Shown one piece after another: positions 23,925 to 39,964 of a DNA stretch of 39,964 nt (the first letter of the stretch is position 1; each line of letters opens with the position of its first letter). Source of the DNA: Mycoplasma wenyonii. GTDB lineage: Bacteria; Bacillota_I; Bacilli_A; Mycoplasmatales; Mycoplasmoidaceae. The notes under the pieces are model-generated. The model was not told where the DNA came from. It searched no databases and saw only the letters and a list, made by a program, of their open reading frames with translations. The stretch lies in assembly GCF_003265155.1 (NCBI RefSeq), contig NZ_QKVO01000003.1, positions 1 to 39,964 on the forward strand, read 5' to 3'. A program made the position numbers and the translations under genes.

Positions 23925-24218
23925 ATGGCCTCCAAAAAGGGAGTTGGTTCCACAAAAAATGGGAGAGATTCAGCCCCAAAGTTCTTAGGAGCAAAGTTAA
24001 GTGATGGACAGTTTGCTAAAGCAGGACAGATAATTTATAGACAGAGAGGATTCAAGATTCATCCGGGAGAAAATGTTGGTTTTGGGAAGGACCATACGTT
24101 ATATGCAAAGATTTCTGGAATAGTTAGTTATCAAAGCTTTAAGGGAAATAAGAAAAGAGTTAAGGTGATTGAAAAAGTTCAAAGAGACCAAGTATCGGAA
24201 CTAAAATCAAATAATTAA
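23925..24218 (+). CDS. rpmA: Ribosomal protein L27
   Basis: Large-subunit protein near the peptidyl-transferase centre. The 97-residue product begins [16 protein letters not shown], followed by [17 protein letters not shown] and [14 protein letters not shown], diagnostic of L27. In most Firmicutes and mollicutes the protein carries an N-terminal extension ending in FF that the Prp protease removes. Here the start is already the mature-type N-terminus. The usual partner rplU is not adjacent. ldh follows after 12 nt. Confidence 0.97.
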
Positions 24219-26887: not shown

Positions 26888-28366
<1,479 letters not shown>

Positions 28367-28369
28367 ATT

Positions 28370-28891
28370 ATGAGCATAATTCCTAAAACATTAATTGCCT
28401 TCTTTGGGATTGGGGCAGGGGGAGTTGCCCCTTTAGCTTATATGGTCTCAAAAGGATTTAATTTCAGTTCTTCTAAAAAGCCATTAAAGATATTGGGGGA
28501 ACAAACAAGTTGAGAGTGTCGAATTCAAGGATTTGAAGAAATGGACTTAAAGTGAGTGTTTTATAATGCCCCTTTCTTTAAGAAACTTCATTGTTATAAA
28601 GAGTCAATATATGATTGACAAATATTTTTACCTAAGACTTTATTTAAAGATGAAAATTTCGATGAAAGTAAGTCCTTGAACTTAATTTCTGAACAAAGAG
28701 AACACAATATAAGTCCCATTAAGATAGTTCAAGAGTCCAAAACACTTTCAAAAGATTGACTTTTAATGAGACTTATTAATAGTTACAACCTTTCTGGAAA
28801 TAGCGAAGAGAATCCTAAGTATTTGAGTCTATATGAATTTGAACTTCTTAATTCTGATAGAGAAGGGGAGAAAGCCTGAGTAAAACTGTAG
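28370..28891 (+). CDS. Signal-anchored surface paralog, no homopolymer tract
   Basis: A 173-residue protein from ATG 28370. Its N-terminal segment (PKTLIAFFGIGAGGVAPLAYMV) is a signal peptide or anchor. The body has cysteines near residues 51 and 76, several TGA Trp codons and no recognisable domain. It ends at TAG 28889. The start lies 3 nt after the gltX stop, so it may be expressed from the gltX transcript. Size, signal type and location match the paralog array that follows, but unlike most of those it carries no G or C tract, so it should be constitutively in frame. Function unknown. Confidence 0.65.
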
Positions 28892-28971
28892 GAATTTTTA
28901 GGAAATAAGTCGGTTAAACATATTTCTGAAGAAATCAAGAAATAATAAATTAAAAACTAGGAAAGCAGAAA

Positions 28972-29573
28972 ATGCTGAAAAAGCTAATTGGCTTTCCTGC
29001 TATTTCTTTAACAGCAATTGTTCCTTTAGCTAAATTATTAACATTTTCCTTCTCATCTGACAAGCACTTAATGCCTCCGCCCCCCCCAGCCAACAACAGA
29101 AAGAGAAAACCTCTGAAACTTGAAATTGAAGGAAATACTGGTTAGATAATTGCAAACCATTTAATAACTCAGAAGAAACAATATTTGTATGTCCTAACCT
29201 CAGCGGAGAAAGCCACCCCAACTTCTACTTCTACCAAGTGAAATATTTAGCAGAAGATAAGAAACATAAAGTTCCGTATTTTACTTCTGCAACAGAGATT
29301 AAAAACTTAAGTTACCAAGCTCAAAGAGATATTTTGATAGTTGAATTAATTGGTGGAGGAATTAAGGAATCATTAAAGGTGTTTCCGCAGGAGTTTAAAA
29401 ATCTAAAACCAGATTATTCTCTAGAGCTAAGTAAAGACTGTAAATGAGACAATAGCAAATTAAAAGGAACAGGGACTCCTTTAAGTTGTAGAAAAGAGAA
29501 AAATGGAGAATTTATGGATATTTCTTTGGAGAAAAATAGTAAATTGAGAATTCCCGAATTTATTATCTCTTAG
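28972..29573 (+). CDS. Phase-variable surface paralog, out of frame (OFF) at a C8 tract
   Basis: ATG 28972 begins a signal peptide (KKLIGFPAISLTAIVPLAKLL). The frame then meets eight C (29080-29087) and ends at TAG 29143-29145 after only 57 residues. The rest of the protein is open in another frame from directly after the tract to TAG 29571-29573. It contains SEETIFVCP, an FYFYQV strand and LSCRKE, a close match to the gene at 32187. Nine or six C would join signal and body into a product of about 200 residues. Taken literally the gene is switched off. A 27-nt stretch (29169-29195) is identical to 32382-32408, suggesting recent recombination or conversion. TGA codons are Trp. Confidence 0.72.
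29080..29087 (+). repeat. C8 homopolymer tract, phase switch
   Basis: Eight consecutive C directly after the signal-peptide coding region of the gene at 28972. With eight the reading frame is broken; one extra C restores it. Confidence 0.8.
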
Positions 29574-29599
29574 CTAAAAAATCTAAATAACTACTTTAT

Positions 29600-29908
29600 T
29601 TATTCAACTAAGTCACAAGAAGATTTATCTCCATCGAAGATAATTCCTTTATTTTGATGTTTGTCTCTGTTTGCTTCTTCTACACTATTTCTCATCGTTG
29701 CTCATAAAACAGTTTGCTCACCTACTTTTAGTCCAAAATTTCTAGTACCATGACACTCTATCTTTTCTCCTCTACTGTCCTTGTATTGAAACTTTGAATT
29801 TAATGAAGAAGGTTGAGTTGACTTTTGTAATTGAGTTACTAATATTGGAGTGCCAATTAAAGCTCCTCCAGCAAGCCCTCCTAGTAATAACTTAAGAATA
29901 AAAATCAT
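29600..29908 (-). CDS. Small signal-anchored protein, unrecognised
   Basis: A 102-residue frame. The N-terminus (FILKLLLGGLAGGALIGTPIL) is a Gly-rich hydrophobic anchor. The remainder is hydrophilic, with two cysteines (ECHGTRN and SSCDLVE) and one TGA Trp. It ends at TAA on forward 29600-29602 and lies 33 nt after rplA on the same strand, so it may be read from the ribosomal transcript. Its orientation is opposite to the flanking surface paralogs, and it has no homopolymer tract. It may be a distant member of the same type of secreted protein. No function assigned. Confidence 0.6.
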
Positions 29909-29941
29909 CGAGAAGACTTGATTTAAATTTTACAGATTTGA

Positions 29942-30580
29942 TTAATAATTCAAGGTTGAAAGAGTTAATTCATAAGACTTACCCATAGTTGCAGATAAGG
30001 AAATCTTCTTAATAAATTGGGACTTAACAGTAGGAGGTTTTTTGGATCTCAAGAACTTAATTAAGTAGGTAAAGTTTTCTTCTAGTTGTTCTATTGAGAA
30101 TGTAGTTTGACCAATTGATAAGTGTACATTCCCCCCACTGTCATTTTTAAGAGTTTTTTGCCCTTTTCTAAAGATTTCAACAGCCTCTCTGGTATCTTTA
30201 ACTACAGTTCCATTCTTCGGAGAAGGAAGCAATCCTTTTGGTCCCAATATCTTTCCTAATTTAAGTAATTTAGGCATAGATTGATGGGAGGCAATAATTA
30301 ATTGGAAGTCCATTCATCCCTGTTGAATTTTTTGAATAGTATCTTCTCCCCCTAAATAGTCTATGCCCGCTTTTTTGGCCTCTTCTTCTCCCAATGACTC
30401 ATCAAAAACCAATATTTTGATGGGCTTTTTAACTACTGGATTAGGAAGTAAATATCTTTCTTTGATGTTTTGTTCATGTTTTTTTGGCTGAATAGCTAAA
30501 AGAATAGCTACATCAACACTCTCAACAAAACTACTTTTTTTATTCTCTAGTATCTTCTCTAAAGCCTCTCTTAATTCCAT
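29942..30580 (-). CDS. rplA: Ribosomal protein L1
   Basis: Forms the L1 stalk of the large subunit. The 212-residue frame, after reading one TGA (forward 30314) as Trp, contains the L1 signature around KLLKLGKILGPKGLLPSPKNGT and the family's KVVFDES-like strand as ILVFDESLG. The sequence is somewhat shorter than the usual 225-230. Its ATG overlaps the rplK stop by one base. The order rplK-rplA is conserved across bacteria. L1 often represses this operon by binding its own mRNA; no such site could be recognised here. Confidence 0.95.
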
Positions 30581-31017
30581 TACTCTAAATCCTTTTTGAT
30601 GATTTTTACTCCCATTTGTCTTGCTGTCCCTGAAATCATTGAGATCATACTTTCTAAATTATCTGTATTTGATTCCTCCAGCTTAATCTTTGCTATCTCA
30701 ACTATTTTGGAATAATCTAAGGTCGCAACAGTTGTTGTTTTTGAGTTTGAAGATCCTTTTTCTATGGATGCAGCTTTCTTAATTAGAGAAGTTGCAGGAG
30801 TTGTTTTTAGTTGAAACTTAAAAGATTTAGAAGGAAGAATCTCAATAACTACTGGAATTCTTTCTCCCATTCTATTAGCACTCTTCTCATTGAATTCCTT
30901 AGAGAATTGAACCATATTAATTCCTAAGCTGGCCAAAGCAGGACCTGGTTTAGCTTGCCCCCCAATTAATTCCAATTTAGCTATTCTATTTTGGGACTTA
31001 AAGAACATCTCTAGCAT
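30580..31017 (-). CDS. rplK: Ribosomal protein L11
   Basis: Component of the GTPase-associated centre. The 145-residue product shows the L11 N-terminal strand KLELIGGQAKPGPALASLGINM, a Phe-rich central region, PATSLIKKAA and the C-terminal RNA-binding ISGTARQMGVKI. ATG 31017 overlaps the rpsO end by 20 nt; the internal ATG at 31008 (MFFKSQ) is an equally possible start. It is coupled to rplA by a TAATG overlap. Confidence 0.95.
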   Translation of the reverse strand: MLEMFFKSQNRIAKLELIGGQAKPGPALASLGINMVQFSKEFNEKSANRMGERIPVVIEILPSKSFKFQLKTTPATSLIKKAASIEKGSSNSKTTTVATLDYSKIVEIAKIKLEESNTDNLESMISMISGTARQMGVKIIKKDLE

Positions 31018-31240
31018 TGGTAATTTCTTTGAGAACCATTCTGTAGTTTTCTGGAGACTTTCTCTTTAGATAACTAAGAAATCTTCTTCTCTTAGAAAGT
31101 AACTTGGCAAGAGCTAACTTACTGTAAAAATCCTTTTTATTCTTTTTAAGGTGTTGTTGAAGTTTTTTAATTCTTTTTCAACATTCTCTTAATTGAAAGA
31201 CATGATCTCCACAGGTAAATTCTTGTTGTAAATTACTCAT
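30998..31240 (-). CDS. rpsO: Ribosomal protein S15
   Basis: An 80-residue, basic, helical protein with the S15 pattern: a GDHVFQLRECWKRIKKLQQHL helix, then KKNKKDFYSK, the KRRRFLSYLKRKSPENYR core and a final Lys/Glu helix. One TGA (Trp) lies inside, so a standard-code search would miss it. ATG 31240 opens the rpsO-rplK-rplA run. S15 beside L11/L1 is not the usual bacterial order, which suggests genome reshuffling. Confidence 0.88.
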
Positions 31241-31610
31241 TAATTATTAGAATTTGACACTTAATTTTGATTCTAAAAGTTCTATATATAAGTTAGATTT
31301 ACTCTATTTAAACTCAAACTCAAAATAAAGTTCTCACAGCCTGAGTTACTAATCTCCTTGAAAGTCTTTTGGTGTTTTAGGAATCAGTTAAATTGCCCCT
31401 TTTTTTTATTTGTTATTAGGTAATAAGTTTTCAGCTAAATATCCAATTGTCTCTTCAGTTTCGTTATCTAGTTTTGCTGATTGGGGAGGGAGATAAGGAA
31501 GTTAAGTTACCTTTGATTAGAAAGTAGGGAGGAAAAGATAATAGATGGTGTGTTTTATGTGACAGGCTATGGAAAGATAGATCACTGTATAGGTAAGTCA
31601 GCTTAGTGGG
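31241..31610. other. Gene-free stretch between rpsO and the paralog array
   Basis: About 370 bases with no convincing gene on either strand. It must hold the rpsO promoter on the minus strand. It contains a T8 run (about 31405-31412) and a GGGGAGGGAG stretch near 31483. Short open stretches with hydrophobic starts occur near 31358 and 31420 and resemble decayed signal-peptide regions, but none leads into a paralog body. Probably a remnant of lost array members plus regulatory sequence. Confidence 0.4.
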
Positions 31611-32047
31611 GTGGATTTCTTCAAAGCTATATTAGTTACTTTAGGGGGCTTAGCTCCTCTAGGCACTGTTATGCCTGTGGTCCTCGCGGGAGGGGGTTGA
31701 AACCTAAGAATTAGACTACAGATATTAAAGAATCTATTGATAATCTAAAAATCTCTTATTGCGGAAAGATAAATGTGGATCCTAACTTTAGGTCTTTTGT
31801 TGGCCACTTTGCTACATATTTAGTTTCCCCAGTAAAACAAGAAGGAGATATCAAGAAACCCACCATATCTTCAATTAGATTTACAGCCTTTCCATATAGG
31901 ATATCGAGTCAATTGCTCCCTTCAGATAACAAAGATCTTTGAAGCATTTGAATTAGTGATTGAGACACATTTAAAAAGGAAGAACTCATTTTTGCTTGAA
32001 GAAACTTGAGTGATATTGTGTACAGATCTAATACCGAGAAAAATTAA
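31611..32047 (+). pseudogene. Decayed surface paralog
   Basis: GTG 31611 starts a good signal peptide (FKAILVTLGGLAPLGTVMPVVLAGGG). Its frame drifts into a short tail ending at TAA near 31744. The protein-like body (KISYCGKINVDPNFRSF... to EKN, TAA 32045-32047, with TGA Trp codons) lies in a different frame that also has a TAG at 31712-31714, between signal and body. Only five G remain where family members have a long tract. A single base change cannot repair it, because the body frame is also blocked by the TAG. I read it as an inactivated copy rather than a switched-off one. Confidence 0.55.
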
Positions 32048-32186
32048 TTAGAGTTCTATAAATGTATACAAAGGAAAGTGATATTTTTTTGCAATTCAAT
32101 TTGAAAGAGATTGACAAGAGAAAGTTCTTCTAGATCTCATTAGTTTCAATAGCTTTAAATCACTTAAGTCTCCTTAGTAAATTAAC

Positions 32187-32741
32187 TTGCCTTTAAAGAG
32201 ACTAGCAATACCTTTTTTAACTATTTCTGCGACAGCTCCATTAGCAATGCATTTAGCTAAGGGGGGGGAGGGAGAAAAGACTTTCAGTCAATCCAGAATC
32301 GCCTCTGATACTGAGTCATCTGGAATGAATCAATATAGTTGAAGGAGCTACTGACTTGAAAAGTGTAAGCCTTTTAGTATTTCAGAAGAAACAATATTTG
32401 TATGTCCTGAGATTTGAGAAGATCAAGGCCCTTCTTTTTATTACTACAAGATTGAATACAAAGGAGATAAGAAAGACAATGCTTTCTCTTTACACGCACA
32501 ACAAGTTAAAGAAATAAGTTACAAGTATCAAACAAATGTTGTAGAGGCAGGATTATTAGATGGGGAAAAGATTCTTATTAAAGAGTTTCCAGAAGAATTT
32601 AAAAAATTAGAAAAAGATTGAGTTATAGAACCAAATAAGAGTTGCAAGATAGACGGGAATAGTTTAGGGGGAAAAACAAAAAAACTAAGTTGTAAATTTC
32701 TTAAAGTGGGAGAATATACATATATTTCTTTAGCCGAGTAA
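32187..32741 (+). CDS. Phase-variable surface paralog, in frame (ON) through a G8 tract
   Basis: TTG 32187 starts a signal peptide (PLKRLAIPFLTISATAPLAMHL), then a G8 tract (32261-32268) encodes KGGE and leads in frame into a 184-residue protein. The body has C-K-P-F then SEETIFVCP, FYYYKIEY, VKEISYKYQ, KSCKIDG and KLSCKF: four cysteines that could form two disulfides. TGA codons are Trp. It is the closest relative of the gene at 28972, which is OFF. As written, eight G keep the frame; a change by one would truncate the product soon after the signal. Function unknown, presumably exported or surface-exposed. Confidence 0.75.
32261..32268 (+). repeat. G8 homopolymer tract, phase switch
   Basis: Eight G directly after the signal-peptide coding region of the gene at 32187. 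The current count keeps the frame open. Confidence 0.8.
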
Positions 32742-32778
32742 TAGTAACTTCTTAGCAAGAAATTAATTAAGTTATTTA

Positions 32779-33279
32779 ATGCAGATTAAAGCTTTTGGTA
32801 TATTTGCCTCTTTTTGTTCTGTAGCTGTAACTCCATACACACTGTTTAAGTCTTTAAGTAAGTCACAAGATACTTCAGCCCCCTCTAACTCTATAAGTCT
32901 TGTAGGAGAAGATGAGTCTGAATTAAAAAAGTTAGATAATTTCTTTGTTACTTATTGCAGAAAGGTAAGAGATACTGTGATTGTTTGCAAAAATAGAGAG
33001 GGATTTCCTTGACCAGAGTTTTACTTTGTAGATAAGACAGAAGGATCAGAAAAACCACAAAAGATTCAAAGCTTTATCTTTCAAGTGGTTGATAAGGTTC
33101 CTGTCTTAGAGTTTGAATTAGAGCGAGGCCAAAGAAAGAAGATAGATGGCCTTCCAACTGGGTTAGGTCTTGAGCTTTTTGAGAAGATCTCTTTGGAGCC
33201 TGATTCAGACTGTATTCTACTTGATAATGCTGCGGAGGGGGGGGCATGCAAAAGCCCAATTCCATTACTTGTAAAGTAA
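32779..33279 (+). CDS. Surface paralog with a G8 tract near the C-terminus
   Basis: A 166-residue product from ATG 32779 with an N-terminal hydrophobic segment (AFGIFASFCSVAVTPYTLF). The body has cysteines in VTYCRK, VIVCKN and DSDCILL, and one TGA Trp. The G8 tract (33237-33244) lies only 12 codons before the stop. With eight G the end reads GACKSPIPLLVK. With nine G it would run on to TAG 33321-33323 and include NSITCKVSRG, which restores the LTCK/LSCK cysteine motif seen at this place in other members. So the tract may switch the C-terminus rather than expression as a whole. Confidence 0.7.
33237..33244 (+). repeat. G8 homopolymer tract near a C-terminus
   Basis: Eight G in the 3' part of the gene at 32779. 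One more G swaps the last 12 residues for a longer tail containing the conserved final cysteine. Confidence 0.75.
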
Positions 33280-33337
33280 GTAGAGGTTATTGAGGAAGTC
33301 AATGAGTGAATCTTCCTTTATAGTCTTTAACTAGTTA

Positions 33338-33870
33338 GTGTCTCTTAAGTCTTTAGTAATATTTGCTGGGCTTAGCTCTTCAGCAGTTCTTCCAATTTCT
33401 ATCTTTTTAGGGAAAGAGTCTAGTTTTGGCACCTCCTTAAGCGGGGGGGGCAATTAGGAAAGATACAGAACCCCTATTATTGAGGATTAACTACTTATTT
33501 TGATAGTCTTAAGTGTCAGAAGAGTTTAGAACGGGAGAATAACTCTCAAGTATTATTGGTTTGTTCAGATGGGTCTGAATTTCAGTTAATCTCTTGAGAG
33601 CTTGATTATCTTAAGGAATCTGGCGAGTTAGGTGTCTTTATCAAAAAACCTAATAAGTTAAAAGAAAAACCTGTGACACTCTACTACGATCACAATGAAA
33701 AGAAATTTAGAACAAATAACTTAAATTGTTGGATTTGAAGTATTTTTGATAACAACAAATACTGTTTAATAAATTCAGAATGAGAGGATACAGTTAGAGT
33801 GCAATTACTTTTTAATTTGAAGACCAGAGAAGTAGATATAAAGAGCTGACAACTAGAAGGTAAAAGCTAA
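33338..33870 (+). CDS. Phase-variable surface paralog, out of frame (OFF) at a G8 tract
   Basis: GTG 33338 starts a signal peptide (SLKSLVIFAGLSSSAVLPISIF). The frame crosses G8 (33443-33450) and stops at TAG a few bases later, giving about 38 residues. The body is open in another frame from just after the tract to TAA 33868-33870 and has KCQKS, VLLVCSDGS, LNCWIW and YCLINSE plus TGA Trp codons. Nine or six G would join the two parts into about 177 residues. The body is only distantly similar to neighbours, apart from the cysteine positions. No canonical TAAAAT box is seen upstream; TTATAGT lies about 15 nt before the start. Confidence 0.65.
33443..33450 (+). repeat. G8 homopolymer tract, phase switch
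   Basis: Eight G after the signal-peptide region of the gene at 33338; the frame is broken as written. Confidence 0.8.
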
Positions 33871-33873
33871 TAG

Positions 33874-34103
33874 GTGTTGAGTCTAAAACACTTGATTACT
33901 TCATTGGCTTCTGTTTCTCCTTTTGTCCCTTTTTTGTCTTTAAACCTACAAAGAACAAATAGTTCAATTCAAAATATTTCTGGGGGGGGCACAGAATTGT
34001 GGATTTAACTAAAGACTGCATTAGTTTGGATAAATATCTAGTGTCTAATGAATTTGAGACTATTTTCTCCTGCCCCCATCTTCCTTCTTTAATAATTACT
34101 TAA
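33874..34103 (+). pseudogene. Truncated surface paralog with G8 tract, out of frame
   Basis: GTG 33874 (or TTG 33877) starts 3 nt after the previous gene and encodes a signal peptide (KHLITSLASVSPFVPFLSL). G8 at 33982-33989 throws the frame to TAA 34006-34008. In the restored frame (nine G) the body would end at TAA 34101-34103 after only about 37 more residues, with KDCISL and TIFSCPHLP, matching the first two cysteine positions of other members. So it is truncated even if switched on. Probably a remnant, or a source of short recombining sequence. Confidence 0.55.
33982..33989 (+). repeat. G8 homopolymer tract
   Basis: Eight G after the signal-peptide region of the truncated paralog at 33874. 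Confidence 0.8.
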
Positions 34104-34117
34104 GAGTTAGTTCAAGA

Positions 34118-34139
34118 TTATTGGGATTAATCCCAATAA
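34118..34139. repeat. 22-bp perfect palindrome between paralogs
   Basis: TTATTGGGATTAATCCCAATAA is its own reverse complement. As RNA it can form an 8-bp stem around ATTAAT. It lies 14 nt after the truncated gene and its right end overlaps the putative -10 box of the gene at 34174. It could be a terminator without a T-run, or an operator. Confidence 0.6.
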
Positions 34140-34142
34140 AAT
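34137..34142 (+). promoter_or_regulatory. Putative -10 box of paralog at 34174
   Basis: TAAAAT, 31 nt before the ATG. Three consecutive downstream paralogs have the same hexamer at 25-28 nt. It overlaps the right end of the 22-bp palindrome. Confidence 0.45.
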
Positions 34143-34173
34143 CACAGTTACATTAGTTTATATAGACCAAGAT

Positions 34174-34721
34174 ATGTTTTGAGGATTTAAATTATTAACT
34201 GCTCTTCCTACAGTTTTTGGAGCGGGGGCTGTATTTTCCTTAGCAACAGCTAATCAAGAATATTTATTAAAAAAGTTAGAGTCAATCTTGCCCCCCCCGC
34301 AGCAAAACCAACAGTAACTAGCTCTCAAGCTCAATTACCACAGGTATTAATACAACAAGTAATTAAGGACAATAATTATGAAGGATGTGGTGTCTTAAAT
34401 GGATTTAGAGGAAGCAAAGCCATATGATATATCTGCTCTGTTAAGAATAACTTAAATAAGCCTGCTCTTTACAACTATGACAAGTCTAGAAATACAGAGT
34501 CCAGAATTCAACAGGTAACTTCTATTTCTTCTAAAAAAGAAGTTAGATTTGTTAAAGGAGGCAATGAGAACTTAACACAATCACCTTTTTGAATGCATAA
34601 ATTTGGAGGAAAAGATCTAAATCCAGCACAGAATTGTAAATTTGAGAAAAATGGTAGTGGAAGCTCATCCTACAACTTAAGCTGCCATAGCCATGTTATT
34701 CAACACAACATTCAGTTCTAA
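34174..34721 (+). CDS. Phase-variable four-Cys surface paralog, out of frame (OFF) at a C8 tract
   Basis: ATG 34174 encodes a signal peptide (FKLLTALPTVFGAGAVFSLATA). Its frame crosses C8 (34291-34298) and stops at TAA within ten codons. The body, open in another frame to TAA 34719-34721, has GCGVLNGFRGSK, WYICSVKNNLNKP, LYNYDKSR, the SPFWMHKF segment, NCKFEKNG and YNLSCH, the same plan as the genes at 34789, 35410 and 36040. Nine C would put signal and body in one frame of about 182 residues. TGA codons are Trp. A TAAAAT box precedes it. As written it is OFF although otherwise intact. Confidence 0.75.
34291..34298 (+). repeat. C8 homopolymer tract, phase switch
   Basis: Eight C after the signal-peptide region of the gene at 34174; nine would open the frame. 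Confidence 0.8.
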
Positions 34722-34754
34722 GAAGACATTAGATTTTTAGCTATTTTGGAATTC

Positions 34755-34760
34755 TAAAAT
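34755..34760 (+). promoter_or_regulatory. Putative -10 box of paralog at 34789
   Basis: TAAAAT, 28 nt before the GTG start, in the context TTGGAATTCTAAAAT. Confidence 0.5.
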
Positions 34761-34788
34761 CCCAAGTAAAGATAAATATATATAGCTA

Positions 34789-35346
34789 GTGTCTTCTGTA
34801 GTAAAGTGATTGTCTGGGTTTTGTAGTTCAGGTCTTGTAGCCACTTGCTCACTTACTTTAGTTCATCAAAATAGACAAGAGGGATTGTCTCAACAATTAG
34901 TAGAGAATGTGCCCCCCCCCAGGGAAAATATAGAAGAGTTTTCTTTAGTGCAACAAATAATAGAGAAAGGTTATAAGAGTTGTTTCATATTACCTAATAG
35001 TCAAGGCCGTTCCTTATTTTATGTGTGTCTGAGAAATGATGATTCCTTAAATCCTTCTTTCTTCTTTCATAACAGATCTAACTCTAAAGAACAACAAAGT
35101 ATAAAGAAAGTAGAGTACATTGAAGGAAGGGATGAAACACTCCCTAGGTTTGCAGTTATGAAATTTGTAGATGGCAATTCTCTTACCCTAAAGTTTGCTC
35201 CATATTTCTGGAGCAGAAAAGGTATTCAAATTAAACCAGAAGAACATTGCACAATAACCAAAGACTTACAAGACAGTAAGTTAACTTGTAAGACACCAAA
35301 CTTAAAAGGGATGGAGTACTCTAAAAAGATTCGATTTATTATTTAG
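34789..35346 (+). CDS. Phase-variable four-Cys surface paralog, in frame (ON) with a C9 tract
   Basis: GTG 34789 gives a signal peptide that includes one TGA Trp (SSVVKWLSGFCSSGLVATCS). Nine C (34912-34920) encode Val-Pro-Pro-Pro and keep the frame open to TAG-free TAG/TAA at 35344-35346, giving 185 residues. The body follows the family plan: LVQQIIEKGYKSCFI, LFYVCLRND, PSFFFHNRS, the FAPYFW segment, EEHCTITKD and SKLTCKT, with four conserved cysteines. This gene has nine C where its OFF sibling at 34174 has eight, the strongest internal evidence for length switching. Presumed exported; function unknown. Confidence 0.75.
34912..34920 (+). repeat. C9 homopolymer tract, phase switch
   Basis: Nine C, the longest tract in the window, in the gene at 34789; frame open. 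Confidence 0.8.
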
Positions 35347-35378
35347 GTTTTTAGATAATCTAGGTCTGGATTTGGCCC

Positions 35379-35384
35379 TAAAAT
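35379..35384 (+). promoter_or_regulatory. Putative -10 box of paralog at 35410
   Basis: TAAAAT, 25 nt before the ATG, in the context TTTGGCCCTAAAATCAC. Confidence 0.5.
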
Positions 35385-35409
35385 CACAGAAAAGACTTAG
35401 TTCTCACTA

Positions 35410-35982
35410 ATGTCTTGAATAACTAAAGTATTAGCTGTCTTTCCGGCTATTGCTGGAGTTTCCACTTATCCTCTGACTTTAGCTATTCAGAGCAAAGTAA
35501 CAGATATTAAAGAAATTGCAGAAGTTGTGCCCCCCCCAGTAACTAGCGTGCCAGCAAAAGTATCAGCTAAAGAGTTGATGAAACAAATAATAGTTACAAA
35601 GCAATATGAAGGGTGTGCAGAGCTAAGAAATACAGTTAGTGGAGGATCTTTATGATTTGTTTGCTCTAGCAAAAATAATTCAAATAAACCTTCTTTATAT
35701 AACTACAACAGAACTAGAAGAGATTCTCAGTTTATAGTTGCTGAGGCAACTTCTATAAACCCTTCAAAAAGAGAAATAACACTTTCAACAGGAACAACTG
35801 AAAAATTTAGAATCCCTCCTTCTTGATTGCATCAATTCAGAAACCAAAATTTAACTCCAAATAATGATTGCAGTGTCACTGAAGATGGTCAAGGTAGTGG
35901 TGGGCAAAAATCCTATACCTTAAAGTGTCACGAAAAAGAAGTACAAAAAGGAATTCAGTTTGAAATCACAAGAAACAACTAA
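35410..35982 (+). CDS. Phase-variable four-Cys surface paralog, in frame (ON) with a C8 tract
   Basis: ATG 35410 starts a signal peptide (SWITKVLAVFPAIAGVSTYPL, with TGA as Trp). Eight C at 35530-35537 read as Val-Pro-Pro-Pro and keep the frame to TAA 35980-35982, giving 190 residues. The body shows MKQIIVTKQYEGCAEL, WFVCSSKNNSNKP, LYNYNRTR, the PPSWLHQF segment, NNDCSVTED and YTLKCHEK, and is closest to the OFF gene at 34174 (shared NKPxLYNY and WxHxF motifs). The base after the tract is A, so eight C is the open count here, unlike in the gene at 34174. Function unknown. Confidence 0.75.
35530..35537 (+). repeat. C8 homopolymer tract, phase switch
   Basis: Eight C in the gene at 35410; frame open as written. 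Confidence 0.8.
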
Positions 35983-36005
35983 GTAATTTAGGTCATTTTT
36001 GCCTC

Positions 36006-36011
36006 TAAAAT
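36006..36011 (+). promoter_or_regulatory. Putative -10 box of paralog at 36040
   Basis: TAAAAT, 28 nt before the ATG, in the context TTTGCCTCTAAAATTCC. Confidence 0.5.
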
Positions 36012-36039
36012 TCCATAGACACAGATTTAACTCCCTTAA

Positions 36040-36606
36040 ATGCCTGTAGGAACAAAGCTCTTAACAGGATTACCTATTGTTACAGGAATTTCAGCGTATC
36101 CTTTAGCTGTAGTTGTTAAAAATCAAGGATTAAAGGTGGAACTAAAAGAGGAAGTGCCCCCCCCAGCGACAGCCCCAATTACCTCCCCTATTAGTTCTGG
36201 GCCAGCTCTAGTTCAAGAAACTATAAAAAAACTATTTGAAGCTGGATATAGCGACTGTACATTAATAAATGGTTATAGAGGTCCTGGCGTTTTATATGTG
36301 TGCTCATTCCAAAAAACAGATGGAGCATATACCCCAACATTCTTTTATTACAACAAGAAAGATATTTCCAGACCGATCAAGGATAGATTTAGAAAGGTAA
36401 CTTATATTTCAACTAAGCAGGGAAATTCAGGGGTACGCTTAGAAGATGGTGAAACCATTAAGTTTACTGGCAGAATGTATCCTTTCTGAATGAGTAAGAT
36501 GAGTGGAGAATTATATCCAGAAACCAATTGCACTATTGATAAACAAGCAGAAAGTAGTAAATTGACTTGCAAAGGGCATGTAATGAATCAAAATCAAGAA
36601 AAATAG
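36040..36606 (+). CDS. Phase-variable four-Cys surface paralog, in frame (ON) with a C8 tract
   Basis: ATG 36040 starts a signal peptide (KLLTGLPIVTGISAYPLAVVV). Eight C (36157-36164) encode Val-Pro-Pro-Pro within a Pro/Thr/Ser-rich linker. The frame continues through one TGA Trp to TAG 36604-36606, giving 188 residues. The body has VQETIKKLFEAGYSDCTLI, VLYVCSFQK, PTFFYYNKK, the MYPFWMSKM segment, ETNCTIDK and SKLTCKG, the full four-cysteine plan. It is the last plus-strand member and meets the minus-strand expression gene of the second family 55 nt further on. Confidence 0.77.
36157..36164 (+). repeat. C8 homopolymer tract, phase switch
   Basis: Eight C in the gene at 36040; frame open as written. 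Confidence 0.8.
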
Positions 36607-36661
36607 ATTAAATCCTCTTTTCTTTTAATTAACTGTTCCTTTATTAATACTTATTAGTAAT

Positions 36662-37324
36662 TTAGGTTACTACGTTTAGGGAACATTCAACTCCCTTTTC
36701 TTTAACTTCACACGATCCAAGAGAAAGAGTCACTTTCATCTCAGCACTGCCATCAACAACGTTATAGAGACCACTGCCTCCTCGTCTAGTATTTGCACTA
36801 TAAAGTCTGGAGCCTCTGCTTCCAGTAACCCTAATATCGCTATTGCGACATGTCAGCGCTACGCCTCTCTCTGTCCCTATATCTCTACTATTCTGCATAA
36901 CTGTGTATTGAATAATAAGACTGAAGGTATCATTTCCGGAGCCAGTCGAAACCCAAAGAGTACCAGGCCCATACCCTTGAATAGGCTTTCATCACTTCCA
37001 TTCTTCACCATTCAATCTAAGAGATACCTTTGTTTCCATAGCAACCATTTGATCTTTCGTCAACTCACCTGCCTTATCTTCCAAATCAGCGACTCATCTC
37101 AATGAGACCCCTCTGGCTCCTTTCTTCAGCGCCCCCCAATCATAATTGGGCCCACTACATTCAACTTCTGCACTTATTGTTTTAGGTATCTCTATATTTC
37201 ATTTATGGGTCGGGGTCTTATCGGCTGTTTCAGTAGAGCGATTGTTGGAGATGGAAACTCCAACAACGCTCGAGATGGTGCCGATAAGGCCCGCTACACC
37301 ACTTATAGAACCGAGCTTACTCAA
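36662..37324 (-). CDS. Complete surface protein of the cassette family (putative expression site)
   Basis: A 220-residue uninterrupted frame from TTG 37324 to TAA on forward 36662-36664. Residues 1-25 (SKLGSISGVAGLIGTISSVVG) form a signal peptide. The mature part starts with a Thr/Lys-rich stretch, then KWNIEIPKTISAEVECSG, GVSLRWV, EEWKWWKP, YGPGTLWVSTG, IIQYTV, TCRNSD, and ends SLGSCEVKEKGVECSLNVVT. TGA codons are Trp. It is the only member of its family here with a start, signal peptide and TAAAAT box (forward 37355-37360, 30 nt upstream). Blocks at both ends are nearly identical to the plus-strand copies at 37545-39964. No known domain; probably displayed on the cell surface and varied by recombination. 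Confidence 0.78.
36666..36712 (-). repeat. 3' conserved block of expression gene (inverted match to 38061-38107)
   Basis: 47 nt, 45 identical on the opposite strand to positions 38061-38107. It encodes CEVKEKGVECSLNVVT. The same end is present in weaker form at about 39466-39500. Confidence 0.8.
37151..37210 (-). repeat. 5' conserved block of expression gene (inverted match to 39589-39648)
   Basis: 60 nt, 59 identical on the opposite strand to 39589-39648. It encodes THKWNIEIPKTISAEV and lies just after the signal-peptide region, marking the junction between the constant and variable parts. Confidence 0.85.
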
Positions 37325-37354
37325 GCTCTTAGAGGGCTGGAAGAGTTATTTTTG

Positions 37355-37360
37355 ATTTTA
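37355..37360 (-). promoter_or_regulatory. Putative -10 box of the expression gene
   Basis: TAAAAT on the reverse strand, 30 nt before the TTG start, the same hexamer and spacing as in four paralogs of the other family. The plus-strand cassettes lack such a box. Confidence 0.5.
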
Positions 37361-37371
37361 GAGCCCCTTAC

Positions 37372-37470
37372 CTAAGATATGGAGTCTTTCATCCGAACAA
37401 AGGCCCACTTAGTATCTTTTCCCCAAAACGAAAAGACATACAACGAGAAAACCAACAACTTCTTACTCAC
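37372..37470 (-). other. Short signal-peptide-like frame upstream of the expression gene
   Basis: A 32-codon frame from GTG (SKKLLVFSLYVFSFWGKD) to TAG, upstream of the expression-gene promoter and on the same strand. It resembles the hydrophobic start of a paralog that lost its body. It may be a remnant or chance. Confidence 0.25.
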
Positions 37471-37544
37471 AAATTGCAATACCAAATTAAAACCTGAAAA
37501 AAATAAAAGCTCAATGTAAGACGATATTTTTAAAAAACAGTTAG

Positions 37545-38138
37545 AAATTTTTCTTATCCCCCACAAAACCCAAACCAATAAGTGCAGAAGTTAAGTGTAG
37601 TGGTAATGTGTGAGATCCTAGAACTAGAGGGAAACCAAAAATTGACGTAACTCTTAGTTGATCTTTCATCTTAGGTGATAATGAAAAGTCTATGTTAAAC
37701 ACAGGAAAGAATGTAAGTAAAACAACCACTATTGACATTAAGAGGAGGAATGCCGAGGGAGACTTGTGGCCCCTAAAACAAGGAAAAGCTAATGAAAAAT
37801 TAGATATTATTGCTGATCCAACGAGAAGAGATAAAGTGGTGATTATTAAATTGAGTGAGGTTCCGAGTAGTACTGGGAGAGCTAGGGTAGTTTATTCAAC
37901 GACAGGCGGTAATGGTGAGCTAACTTGTCTAGACAAAGATTTGAATATTATGACGAAAGAACAGAGAAACATATACAGTCGAACGATGAGGAAAGGGGCT
38001 GGAATAAGCTACCAGAAGAACAATGATGGATCTTTAAAAATTGATGTTTCCTTGAGCAGGTGTGAAGTTAAGGAAAAGGAAGTTGAATGTTCCCTAAACG
38101 TAGTAACAGGATCTGATAGAAAAATGAATTCTTATTAA
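37545..38138 (+). pseudogene. Silent cassette 1: intact body, no signal peptide or start
   Basis: Open from just after TAG 37542-37544 to TAA 38136-38138, 197 codons with TGA as Trp. It begins PKPISAEVKCSG, continues DVTLSWSFILGD, DLWPLKQGKANEKLDII, KVVIIKLSEVP, GELTCLDKD, and ends SLSRCEVKEKEVECSLNVVT. It has no signal peptide, no ATG/GTG/TTG near the conserved start and no TAAAAT box upstream. Its central part differs from the expression gene and forms a second subtype shared with cassette 2. Its 3' block matches the expression gene at 45 of 47 bases. Best read as a donor copy; an unexpressed pseudogene is the simpler alternative. Confidence 0.65.
38061..38107 (+). repeat. 3' conserved block of cassette 1
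   Basis: Inverted near-identical copy of 36666-36712 (45 of 47 bases). Confidence 0.8.
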
Positions 38139-38224
38139 TTTACTTAAAAGCAAATAGAGTAGGTTTTTAAATTTTTGAAATTTGAAAGAGAATTTTTATT
38201 TTTAATCCAGTCTTCATAAACGTC

Positions 38225-38824
38225 GAAATATAGAGATACCTAAACCAATAAGTGCAGAGGTTAGTTGTGAAGGTGATGTCGCAAAATCTACTGGGAAAAG
38301 GAAAGGAAAATGTAACCGTAACTCTTAGTTGATCAATGATACTAACTACAGGTGGCATAGAAATATTAAAAGAAGGGAAAACAATTAAAAAAAGAACAAA
38401 CATTTCTATTAAAAAAAATGGCAACCGAGAGGATTTATGATCCCTAAAAAAGGGAAAGGCAAATGAGAAATTGGACATTGTTGTTGAAACTAGGAGGATT
38501 GGAAAGGTGATCATTATTAAGATAACTGAATTTCCGAGTGAAATTAGAGGAGGGAACGTGTACTGGTCTTATGGAGACACAGAGCTCGGGGAGTTAACTT
38601 GTGAATAGACGGATTTAGTTGTTGGGGGCTTAATAAAACGAAGTTTGTACAGTCGTACGATGAGACAGAAGAGTTGAGAAGAGTGGTGACCAAGTAACGA
38701 TGGAACTTTAGATGTTGGATTTTCTCTTGAGAAGTGTGAGGTTAAAGGAGAAAATGTTGAATGTTCCCTAAGAATAATTAATTGCGTAAGAACAATATTT
38801 TTAGTTTCTATTTATACAAAGTAA
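38225..38824 (+). pseudogene. Silent cassette 2: frameshifted, with an in-frame stop
   Basis: Starts with the conserved IEIPKPISAEVSC segment. A frameshift near 38307-38315 is needed to reach VTLSWSMILTTGG, then DLWSLKKGKANEKLDIV, VIIIKITEFP and ELTCE. A TAG follows at about 38606 where cassette 1 continues with LDKD, and then the frame resumes with LYSRTMRQKSW and EKCEVKGENVECSL. It is clearly homologous to cassette 1 but cannot be translated as one protein. Segments between the lesions could still donate sequence. TGA is Trp. Confidence 0.6.
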
Positions 38825-38938
38825 ATAATTTCCAAGAAATAATCAAAACTATAAGTTACTTTATTTGGTCTTAAAACAGTGAAAAATAAATTTTTTGAGA
38901 TATAAATTTTCAATCTATATTATGCTTTTTCACCTTAA

Positions 38939-39511
38939 TACTGCAACTATAAATGATGAAATATAGAGATACCTGAACCAATAAGTGCAGAGGTTAAATG
39001 TAGTGGAAATATTCACGATCATCGAGCAGGAACACGAGGACAAACTCAGCAAATTGAAGTGGATCTCAAGTGAAACTTAGGCTTAGAAGAGGGCGACAAA
39101 GAATGATTATTAAAAGGACAAGATATTACTAAAAATGCAAGAGTCACGATTGACCAAGATGGGAACAAGTTTGATTGATGGTTTGATGTTCAGACATACG
39201 GTCCTAGTTCACTTCGGATTTCAACTGATCCCAGAAGTAACAAATTGAACTTTTCTATCCATTACACTATCGCAACTATTCGAAGGTGGCTAGGGCGAAA
39301 CGGAGGAATGTCTATACCTTGCGGGGATGATAGTCTTATTAAAACAGGTTCAGTGGAAGAGCTTATTTATAGCGAAAATACGAGAGCAAGGGAAGGGGGA
39401 ACGTATAACAAGGTAGATATAGGTCAGGATTTAGAAGTTGGGATTTCGCTTACTAATTGCGAAATTGAGGAACGAAAAGTGAAATGTTCCCTAAACAAAA
39501 CTGTCGAATAA
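38939..39511 (+). pseudogene. Silent cassette 3: intact body, no signal peptide or start
   Basis: Open from after TAA 38936-38938 to TAA 39509-39511, 190 codons with TGA Trp. It begins KWWNIEIPEPISAEVKCSG, then VDLKWNLGLEEGDKEW, KFDWWFDV, YGPSSLRIST, SIHYTIA, SIPCGDD, LIYSENTRAREGGTYNKV, and ends SLTNCEIEERKVKCSLN. The central part is the same subtype as the expression gene (WW...YGP...ST order). There is no start codon ahead of the conserved block, no signal peptide and no TAAAAT box. A conserved AT-rich spacer precedes it, also found before cassette 4. Confidence 0.65.
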
Positions 39512-39588
39512 CAAACTTAAAAACTAAAAACAAAAGCCGGAGTAAATTTTTTAGATCGAAATTCTTAATCTATTCTCATCAGCCTCCA

Positions 39589-39648
39589 ACCCATAAATGA
39601 AATATAGAGATACCTAAAACAATAAGTGCAGAAGTTAAATGTAGTGGG
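39589..39648 (+). repeat. 5' conserved block of cassette 4
   Basis: Inverted near-identical copy of 37151-37210 (59 of 60 bases). Weaker copies begin cassettes 2 (about 38225) and 3 (about 38958). Confidence 0.85.
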
Positions 39649-39964
39649 AGTGTATACAATCACCTAGAAAGAGGAGGGTATCAGGACGTTAATGTAGATC
39701 TCAAATGGGAATTAGATTTAAATGACAGTGACAAGAAAGTATTAATGAAAGATAGGAGTATTACTAGGAAAGCAAAGGTCACGATTGAACAAGATGGTGA
39801 AGATTGAGACTGGTGAGTTACCACTGAAAGGTTAGGTCCTAGCCAACTTTGAGTTTCAACTGGTTCAGATGGTAAAAGTCTTAGTATTAACGTTCAATAT
39901 ACTGTTGCTGGCGGGCGACACACGGGGCACACAGGTGCAATCAGTTTAGGTTGTTCGCTTGAAG
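39589..39964 (+). pseudogene. Silent cassette 4 (cut by window end)
   Basis: Begins THKWNIEIPKTISAEVKCSG inside a 60-nt block that matches the expression gene at 59 of 60 bases in inverted orientation. It continues VDLKWELDLND, EDWDWWVT, LGPSQLWVSTG, LSINVQYTVAGG and runs off the right edge. No start or signal peptide is seen upstream; the frame is open through the spacer, but that stretch is not protein-like. TGA is Trp. More cassettes may follow beyond the window. Confidence 0.65.

Follow-up and report, generated by a model that had tools for sequence, protein, structure and literature searches.

A candidate expression gene facing an inverted bank of promoterless cassettes in the cattle hemoplasma Mycoplasma wenyonii

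By what genetic arrangement could a hemoplasma vary an antigen during infection? Hemoplasmas cause persistent, cyclic blood infections and are uncultivable. For more than 10 years, antigenic variation has been attributed to their large paralogue families, and no mechanism is described in the accessible parts of hemoplasma papers in the open-licence literature. The question is raised here by the right end of contig 31 in the draft genome of M. wenyonii INIFAP02 (596,665 bases, 37 contigs), a cattle hemoplasma sequenced with MiSeq short reads at ~7x and assembled with SPAdes (PMC6256526). The window, which is the whole stretch of DNA analysed, is this entire contig of 39,964 nucleotides (nt). 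At its right end, a minus-strand gene that we call E1 faces a row of plus-strand copies, termed cassettes, that lack its beginning.

The evidence leans towards the locus being an antigen-diversification system, in which one expression head and a donor bank are connected by RecA-dependent exchange through end blocks. The feature is real and well bounded, and it is the best hemoplasma candidate known to us for an expression site with a donor bank. Its architecture is well supported; that it switches, we infer. The locus is also a small concrete target, with one fixed head and a countable bank, accessible directly from blood.

All frames were translated with TGA as tryptophan. The genome was read as sampled stretches, and the promoter-box statistics come from 134 kb of it. 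E1 and its facing bank are referred to as family 1 (profile A1), and a related bank on contig 34 as family 2 (profile A3). Comparisons of E1 with cassettes are based on the single assembly of one strain. The parts of E1 are as follows, in window coordinates.

36662..37324, minus strand: E1, candidate expression gene, open frame of 220 amino acids (aa) with a TTG start at 37324 and a stop at 36662
37247..37324, minus strand: hydrophobic N-terminus of E1 (signal or anchor, ~26 aa), recognised by hydropathy; homology to cassette 5 starts directly after it
37355..37361, minus strand: CTAAAAT box of E1, very probably its promoter element, 37 nt upstream of the start codon
37152..37251, minus strand: 5′ block of E1, 100 nt with 94% identity to cassette 5
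36714..37151, minus strand: variable middle of E1, ~46% nt identity to cassettes
36666..36713, minus strand: 3′ block of E1, 48 nt with 96% identity to cassette 1
37362..37544, no strand: spacer from the E1 promoter to cassette 1, unique sequence

The first-pass annotation had read 36662-37324 as a complete minus-strand gene with box, start and signal, and all three are found: TTG at 37324, a mean Kyte-Doolittle hydropathy of 1.83 over 15 N-terminal residues, and CTAAAAT at 37361-37355. No near copy of the hydrophobic N-terminus occurs within the bank.

The box was evaluated by counting CTAAAAT sites located 20-50 nt before the start of an open reading frame of at least 110 aa, with the reverse complement as a control. 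Ten of the 18 CTAAAAT sites in the 134 kb precede the start codon of a long frame by 28-37 nt, while the reverse complement gives 1/18 in the same test. CTAAAAT is therefore very probably a promoter element in this genome. Within the bank, only E1 has it at the usual spacing. In the window as a whole, CTAAAAT is present at 24201, 34754, 35378 and 36005 on the plus strand and at 37361 on the minus strand.

The cassettes facing E1 were examined together with those at the right end of contig 22, where the bank goes on.

37545..38138, plus strand: cassette 1 (subtype B), 197-codon open frame without start, signal or box; homology from 37568
38225..38779, plus strand: cassette 2 (subtype B), degenerate, with a frame shift and a TAG
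38939..39511, plus strand: cassette 3 (subtype A), 190-codon open frame; homology from 38956
39578..39964, plus strand: cassette 4 (subtype A), incomplete at the end of contig 31
contig 22:98780-98555, same orientation as the bank once the contig is reversed: end of a cassette
contig 22:98345-97719, same orientation once the contig is reversed: cassette 5 (subtype B)
contig 22:97559-96948, same orientation once the contig is reversed: cassette 6 (subtype A)

Four plus-strand homologues had been claimed, and they are present at 37545, 38225, 38939 and ~39578. They have neither signal nor box, and no start codon precedes the conserved domain in any cassette. N-terminal hydropathy is 0.16-0.50 in the open family-1 cassettes and 1.67-2.10 in the three family members elsewhere that bear a signal (contig 22:67826-68623, contig 22:69003-69755 and contig 3:5228-6028). 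Paralogues of this kind in the sampled sequence usually start with a hydrophobic segment, unlike the open cassettes. The cassettes had also been said to begin at one common point just after the signal. All do begin just past it, but within a zone of ~65-70 nt rather than at one exact point, cassette 5 being flush with the signal end and cassette 1 the latest. The spacers between cassettes are tens to ~200 bp long and unrelated or weakly related. The proposed division of the middles into two subtypes is reproduced, with E1 and cassettes 3, 4 and 6 in one and cassettes 1, 2 and 5 in the other.

Could the cassettes be genes in their own right, translated from internal GTG codons as non-secreted proteins or expressed from unrecognised promoters? 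GTG starts are available at 37608 and 39059, and hemoplasma promoters are poorly known. However, these GTG codons fall inside the conserved domain, past the 5′ block, and an exported protein is the more likely product in view of the conserved cysteines and the paralogues. Neither CTAAAAT nor TAAAAT is found on the cassette strand of the bank, although this count by itself is a weak argument for promoterless cassettes because only ~1 TAAAAT is expected there by chance. We consider independent expression very improbable.

The first-pass annotation also suggested following the bank rightward. On the right end of contig 22 there are two more cassettes and a cassette end. Over 45 nt, the right end of contig 31 and the beginning of reversed contig 22 are identical at 43/45 positions, and the two pieces, if joined, make one complete cassette. 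In addition, gltX and an HD-domain gene are direct neighbours in four genomes of the same genus and 4.9 kb apart in a fifth. In M. wenyonii INIFAP02, contig 31 carries gltX and contig 22 the HD gene, and the bank is in between. This synteny supports the join. Thus the bank comprises six or more cassettes within an island of ~16.5 kb, and further copies are possible in the gap.

The two differences in the overlap (39920-39964 vs contig 22:98736-98780) are one silent and one Ser/Pro change, which could represent mixed alleles, low-coverage errors or two separate cassettes. The paralogue island that separates gltX from the HD gene comprises 28363-39964 of the window and contig 22:93840-98780. In the fifth genome (G002), a different paralogue island of 4.9 kb occupies the same gltX/HD site.

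It should be considered here whether assembly of repeats at low coverage could have produced a chimaera, either at the inverted junction or in the bank. Coverage is ~7x (PMC6256526), both banks contain contig ends, and the overlap of contigs 31 and 22 has two mismatches. On the other hand, the longest exact repeat that E1 shares with a cassette measures 48 nt, below the top k of 127 used in the assembly; the spacer between E1 and cassette 1 is unique; and the flanks are supported by synteny. An artefact is thus the least probable explanation of all that we weighed.

The end blocks differ greatly from the middle in conservation. The block identities previously given are reproduced exactly: 59/60 for the 5′ block of E1 with cassette 4 and also with cassette 5, and 45/47 between the 3′ block and cassette 1, compared with ~31/60 for shuffled sequence. 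A repeat search yielded inverted pairs of 71 nt (93%), 51 nt (92%), 48 nt (96%) and 38 nt (95%), of which the inverted 5′ blocks span 36-71 nt. The 71-nt stretch of the E1 5′ block at 37151-37221 has 93% identity to cassette 4. At the other end, the 3′ core GAATGTTCCCTAAACGTAGTAAC (36666-36688) is identical across E1, cassette 1, c4b and cassette 5. Between E1 and the cassettes, exact matches of ≥13 nt, which reach 48 nt, are confined to the end blocks or lie directly beside one, as does a 17-nt match in cassette 6 adjoining the 3′ core.

Where E1 and cassettes have the same residue, codon agreement is 92% for the 5′ block, 71% for the 3′ block and 48% for the middle. Conservation of the blocks thus exceeds the needs of the protein, and the middle is saturated. 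Moreover, despite their difference in subtype, E1 and cassette 5 share the 100-nt 5′ block at 94%, with an abrupt left edge where the signal ends, which is best read as recombination in the blocks. E1 and cassette 4 have in common the KTIS variant and 48 identical nt. Both likenesses are best read as marks of past exchange in the 5′ block.

Open frames are kept in five of the six cassettes (1, 3, 4, 5 and 6). Together with four family-2 cassettes, these hold 1664 open codons, while the other two frames of the strand have 0.068 stops per codon; they have remained open although the synonymous sites of the middle are saturated.

Family 2 forms a second bank. At least four plus-strand cassettes of this related family (k0 to k3) are located at the left end of contig 34, and its profile matches E1 at 2.3e-7. 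Those with an assembled 5′ end begin at (P)SHLWKVEKVG, just past the expected signal, and bear no signal. The exact blocks of the family are 32 nt at the 5′ end and 36-39 nt at the 3′ end. Cassette k2 and a gene at the end of contig 5 have 94.6% identity over 223 nt, which extends no further than the right edge of the 3′ block. The contig 5 gene retains the C-terminal tail and runs off the contig end. This pattern is suggestive of what a duplicative exchange would leave, with the 5′ end of the contig 5 gene lying in the unassembled part.

For the two alignable family-2 pairs, the ratio of nonsynonymous to synonymous substitution rates (dN/dS) is 0.46 and 0.38, indicating that protein function is kept in sequences without visible means of expression of their own. 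Diversifying selection was considered and rejected, as dN/dS is below 1 in both pairs; positive selection is not claimed.

These results bear on a simpler explanation, in which the bank is a relic array of decaying 5′-truncated duplicates whose end blocks are homogenised by occasional ectopic conversion without selected switching. Cassette 2 is broken, no donor is seen for the middle of E1, and the spacers are unrelated or weakly related, all of which this explanation accommodates. It does not readily account for five of six cassettes and the second bank being open despite saturated synonymous sites, for dN/dS below 1 in both alignable pairs, or for the truncation of two related families at the same place. 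We regard decay as unlikely.

If the locus is instead a diversification system, it may work as follows. A single head (37361-37247), consisting of the CTAAAAT promoter, the start codon and the signal, would drive E1, whose product would be a secreted or surface-anchored, mostly beta protein. The head-to-head bank of at least six 5′-truncated promoterless cassettes would store alternative bodies. New bodies would reach the head by RecA-dependent homologous recombination, anchored by the 5′ block (~40-100 bp, just past the signal) and usually also by the 3′ block (~23-48 bp, at the C-terminus). The most likely form would be gene conversion of the part between the blocks. E1 would then be the only transcribed copy and its protein would probably be exposed on the surface; we infer that the exchange takes place during infection, and likewise its direction.

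RecA is present, and the tyrosine (PF00589) and serine (PF00239) recombinase families were not found in the 94% complete assembly. Exchange through the blocks by RecA is favoured by these two observations. The earlier claim of an expression site with donors stands as to layout, strengthened by the second bank. Its further claim, segmental conversion of the middle, does not find the expected trace: the middle of E1 has no exact match of at least 13 nt to any visible cassette of the incompletely assembled bank. The present body of E1 was thus not recently copied from a donor in the assembly.

Exchange could also proceed by reciprocal inversion, with a crossover between the 5′ block of E1 and the inverted 5′ block of a cassette flipping the segment between them. 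The head would become joined to another body and the old body of E1 would fall silent, resembling M. pulmonis vsa switching in its outcome but without a dedicated recombinase. The geometry fits: E1 is opposite to all cassettes, inverted 5′ blocks of 36-71 nt are present, and the head is placed exactly where the minus body gives way to the plus bodies, as required in every state. Furthermore, no second copy of the body of E1 is visible, and inversion would leave none; this body also ends as an ordinary cassette does. However, inversion has no need of a conserved 3′ block whose right edge is shared, neither PF00589 nor PF00239 was found in the assembly, and the head-to-head layout is equally normal for vls, a gene-conversion system (PMC11499132). 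Family 2 has a duplicated body, shared by k2 and the contig 5 gene, which tilts the balance to conversion. Gene conversion is the more likely form of exchange; inversion, with which the data are also compatible, appears rather improbable.

Several points weigh against a conversion-based diversification system. Efficient RecA exchange would call for longer end blocks. The middle of E1 is carried by no visible cassette, the nearest being cassette 6 with 73% over 258 nt. The 3′ end of E1 is itself cassette-like, and a constant 3′ part of its own is absent: E1 ends at the 3′ block, without the ~20-residue C-terminal segment present in cassette 6 and in the three dispersed signal-bearing paralogues, so it is not the longest form of the family. 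Those same three paralogues mean that a signal is not exclusive to E1 within the family. The contig 5 gene is incomplete, leaving its head unseen, and the assembly is a short-read one of ~7x depth (PMC6256526).

A wider proposal is offered only tentatively. There would be at least two parallel head-and-cassette systems in one reduced genome, in which RecA, acting across inverted blocks of 25-100 bp and without a dedicated recombinase, moves highly divergent bodies (~30% aa identity), whether by inversion or by conversion, to a single head with promoter and signal.

How does the locus compare with known systems? In layout it resembles vlhA, vls and vsa, and by protein homology it is a member of none. 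In M. synoviae vlhA, promoterless partial genes are recruited to a single promoter (PMC2825196, PMC4206340), and replacement from the 5′ constant part to the C-terminus was seen at only 37.6% aa identity (PMC2825196). Like the present case, this is a mollicute system with one promoter and 5′ end and a regional reservoir of promoterless partial genes (PMC2825196, PMC4206340). Unlike vlhA, the constant head is much shorter here and the gene faces its bank in inverted orientation; switching is a prediction here. Homology to the VlhA haemagglutinin is absent, E1 having no Pfam or NCBIfam match.

The first-pass annotation knew of no description of this exact inverted arrangement in hemoplasmas. It does not appear in the accessible parts of the hemoplasma papers, but head-to-head order is standard in Borrelia vls (PMC11499132), where an expression gene and a cassette array face each other and the contiguous cassettes are ~90% identical to vlsE (PMC11499132). 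Promoterless cassettes, mirrored 5′-end sequence and mostly open frames are further likenesses (PMC11499132). In contrast to vls, the middles here have ~46% nt identity, spacers are present, the location is a chromosomal contig rather than a linear plasmid, and the protein, without Pfam or NCBIfam match, is unrelated to VlsE.

Inverted copies of a crossover sequence at the 5′ end of the expressed and silent genes, 36-71 nt here, are shared with inversion of the M. pulmonis vsa type, and in both cases one gene is tied to the expression locus while others are silent. Switching of vsa is carried out by a site-specific recombinase. Families of such recombinases were not found here, and the vsa body has tandem repeats. 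The vsa rearrangement joins the 5′ part of the expressed gene to other genes (PMC10502178).

Among more distant systems, this locus differs from msp2 of Anaplasma marginale in phylum and in having one facing bank. The functional pseudogenes of msp2 have short conserved ends around a strongly divergent middle, and they are dispersed, with no single facing bank. An analogy with Anaplasma was already drawn by hemoplasma authors, as seen in the accessible parts of two papers (PMC3146833, PMC3196708). The available portions of other reports describe tandem paralogues of small secreted hypothetical proteins, suspected in antigenic variation, in M. haemofelis, M. haemocanis and M. suis (PMC3496576, PMC3196708, PMC3091866). 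Many members of these islands are reported there with signal peptides, unlike the signal-less cassettes here. Neither an expression site nor a donor bank is described in the accessible parts of hemoplasma genome papers from the open-licence literature (PMC3196708, PMC3146833, PMC3091866, PMC4423628, PMC3496576).

Searches of E1 against Pfam, NCBIfam and PDB sequences gave nothing significant, and the family profile had no PDB sequence match below E 0.49. An AlphaFold model of E1, made from 11 sequences, has a mean predicted local distance difference test score (pLDDT) of 68.5 and consists mainly of beta strands; a PDB fold search with it gave nothing at E ≤ 0.001, with template-modelling (TM) scores of ~0.2. 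The model thus predicts a mostly beta protein and supports nothing further. The family-1 profile had no match at E ≤ 0.001 in 28 related genomes, nor did a further contig scan of related genomes give one, and the family-2 profile had none at E ≤ 1 in six genomes of the same genus.

A few minor observations concern the surroundings. Near E1 there is a single G-quadruplex motif, inside the neighbouring gene at 36188. Contig 14 (L009) contains at 215-853 another 5′-truncated family-1 copy near a contig end, with an open frame and the full C-terminal tail but no signal. Matching pairs of signal-bearing paralogues at contig 5:3261-4666 and contig 34:1752-4554 suggest related islands, and a join of the two contigs, which fits their orientation and shared paralogues, is plausible. 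Incidentally, the family member at contig 3:5228-6028 carries eight consecutive G near its start, and two frames beside it (L008, 5228-7482) start just after GGG runs, making slipped-strand phase variation possible on this contig.

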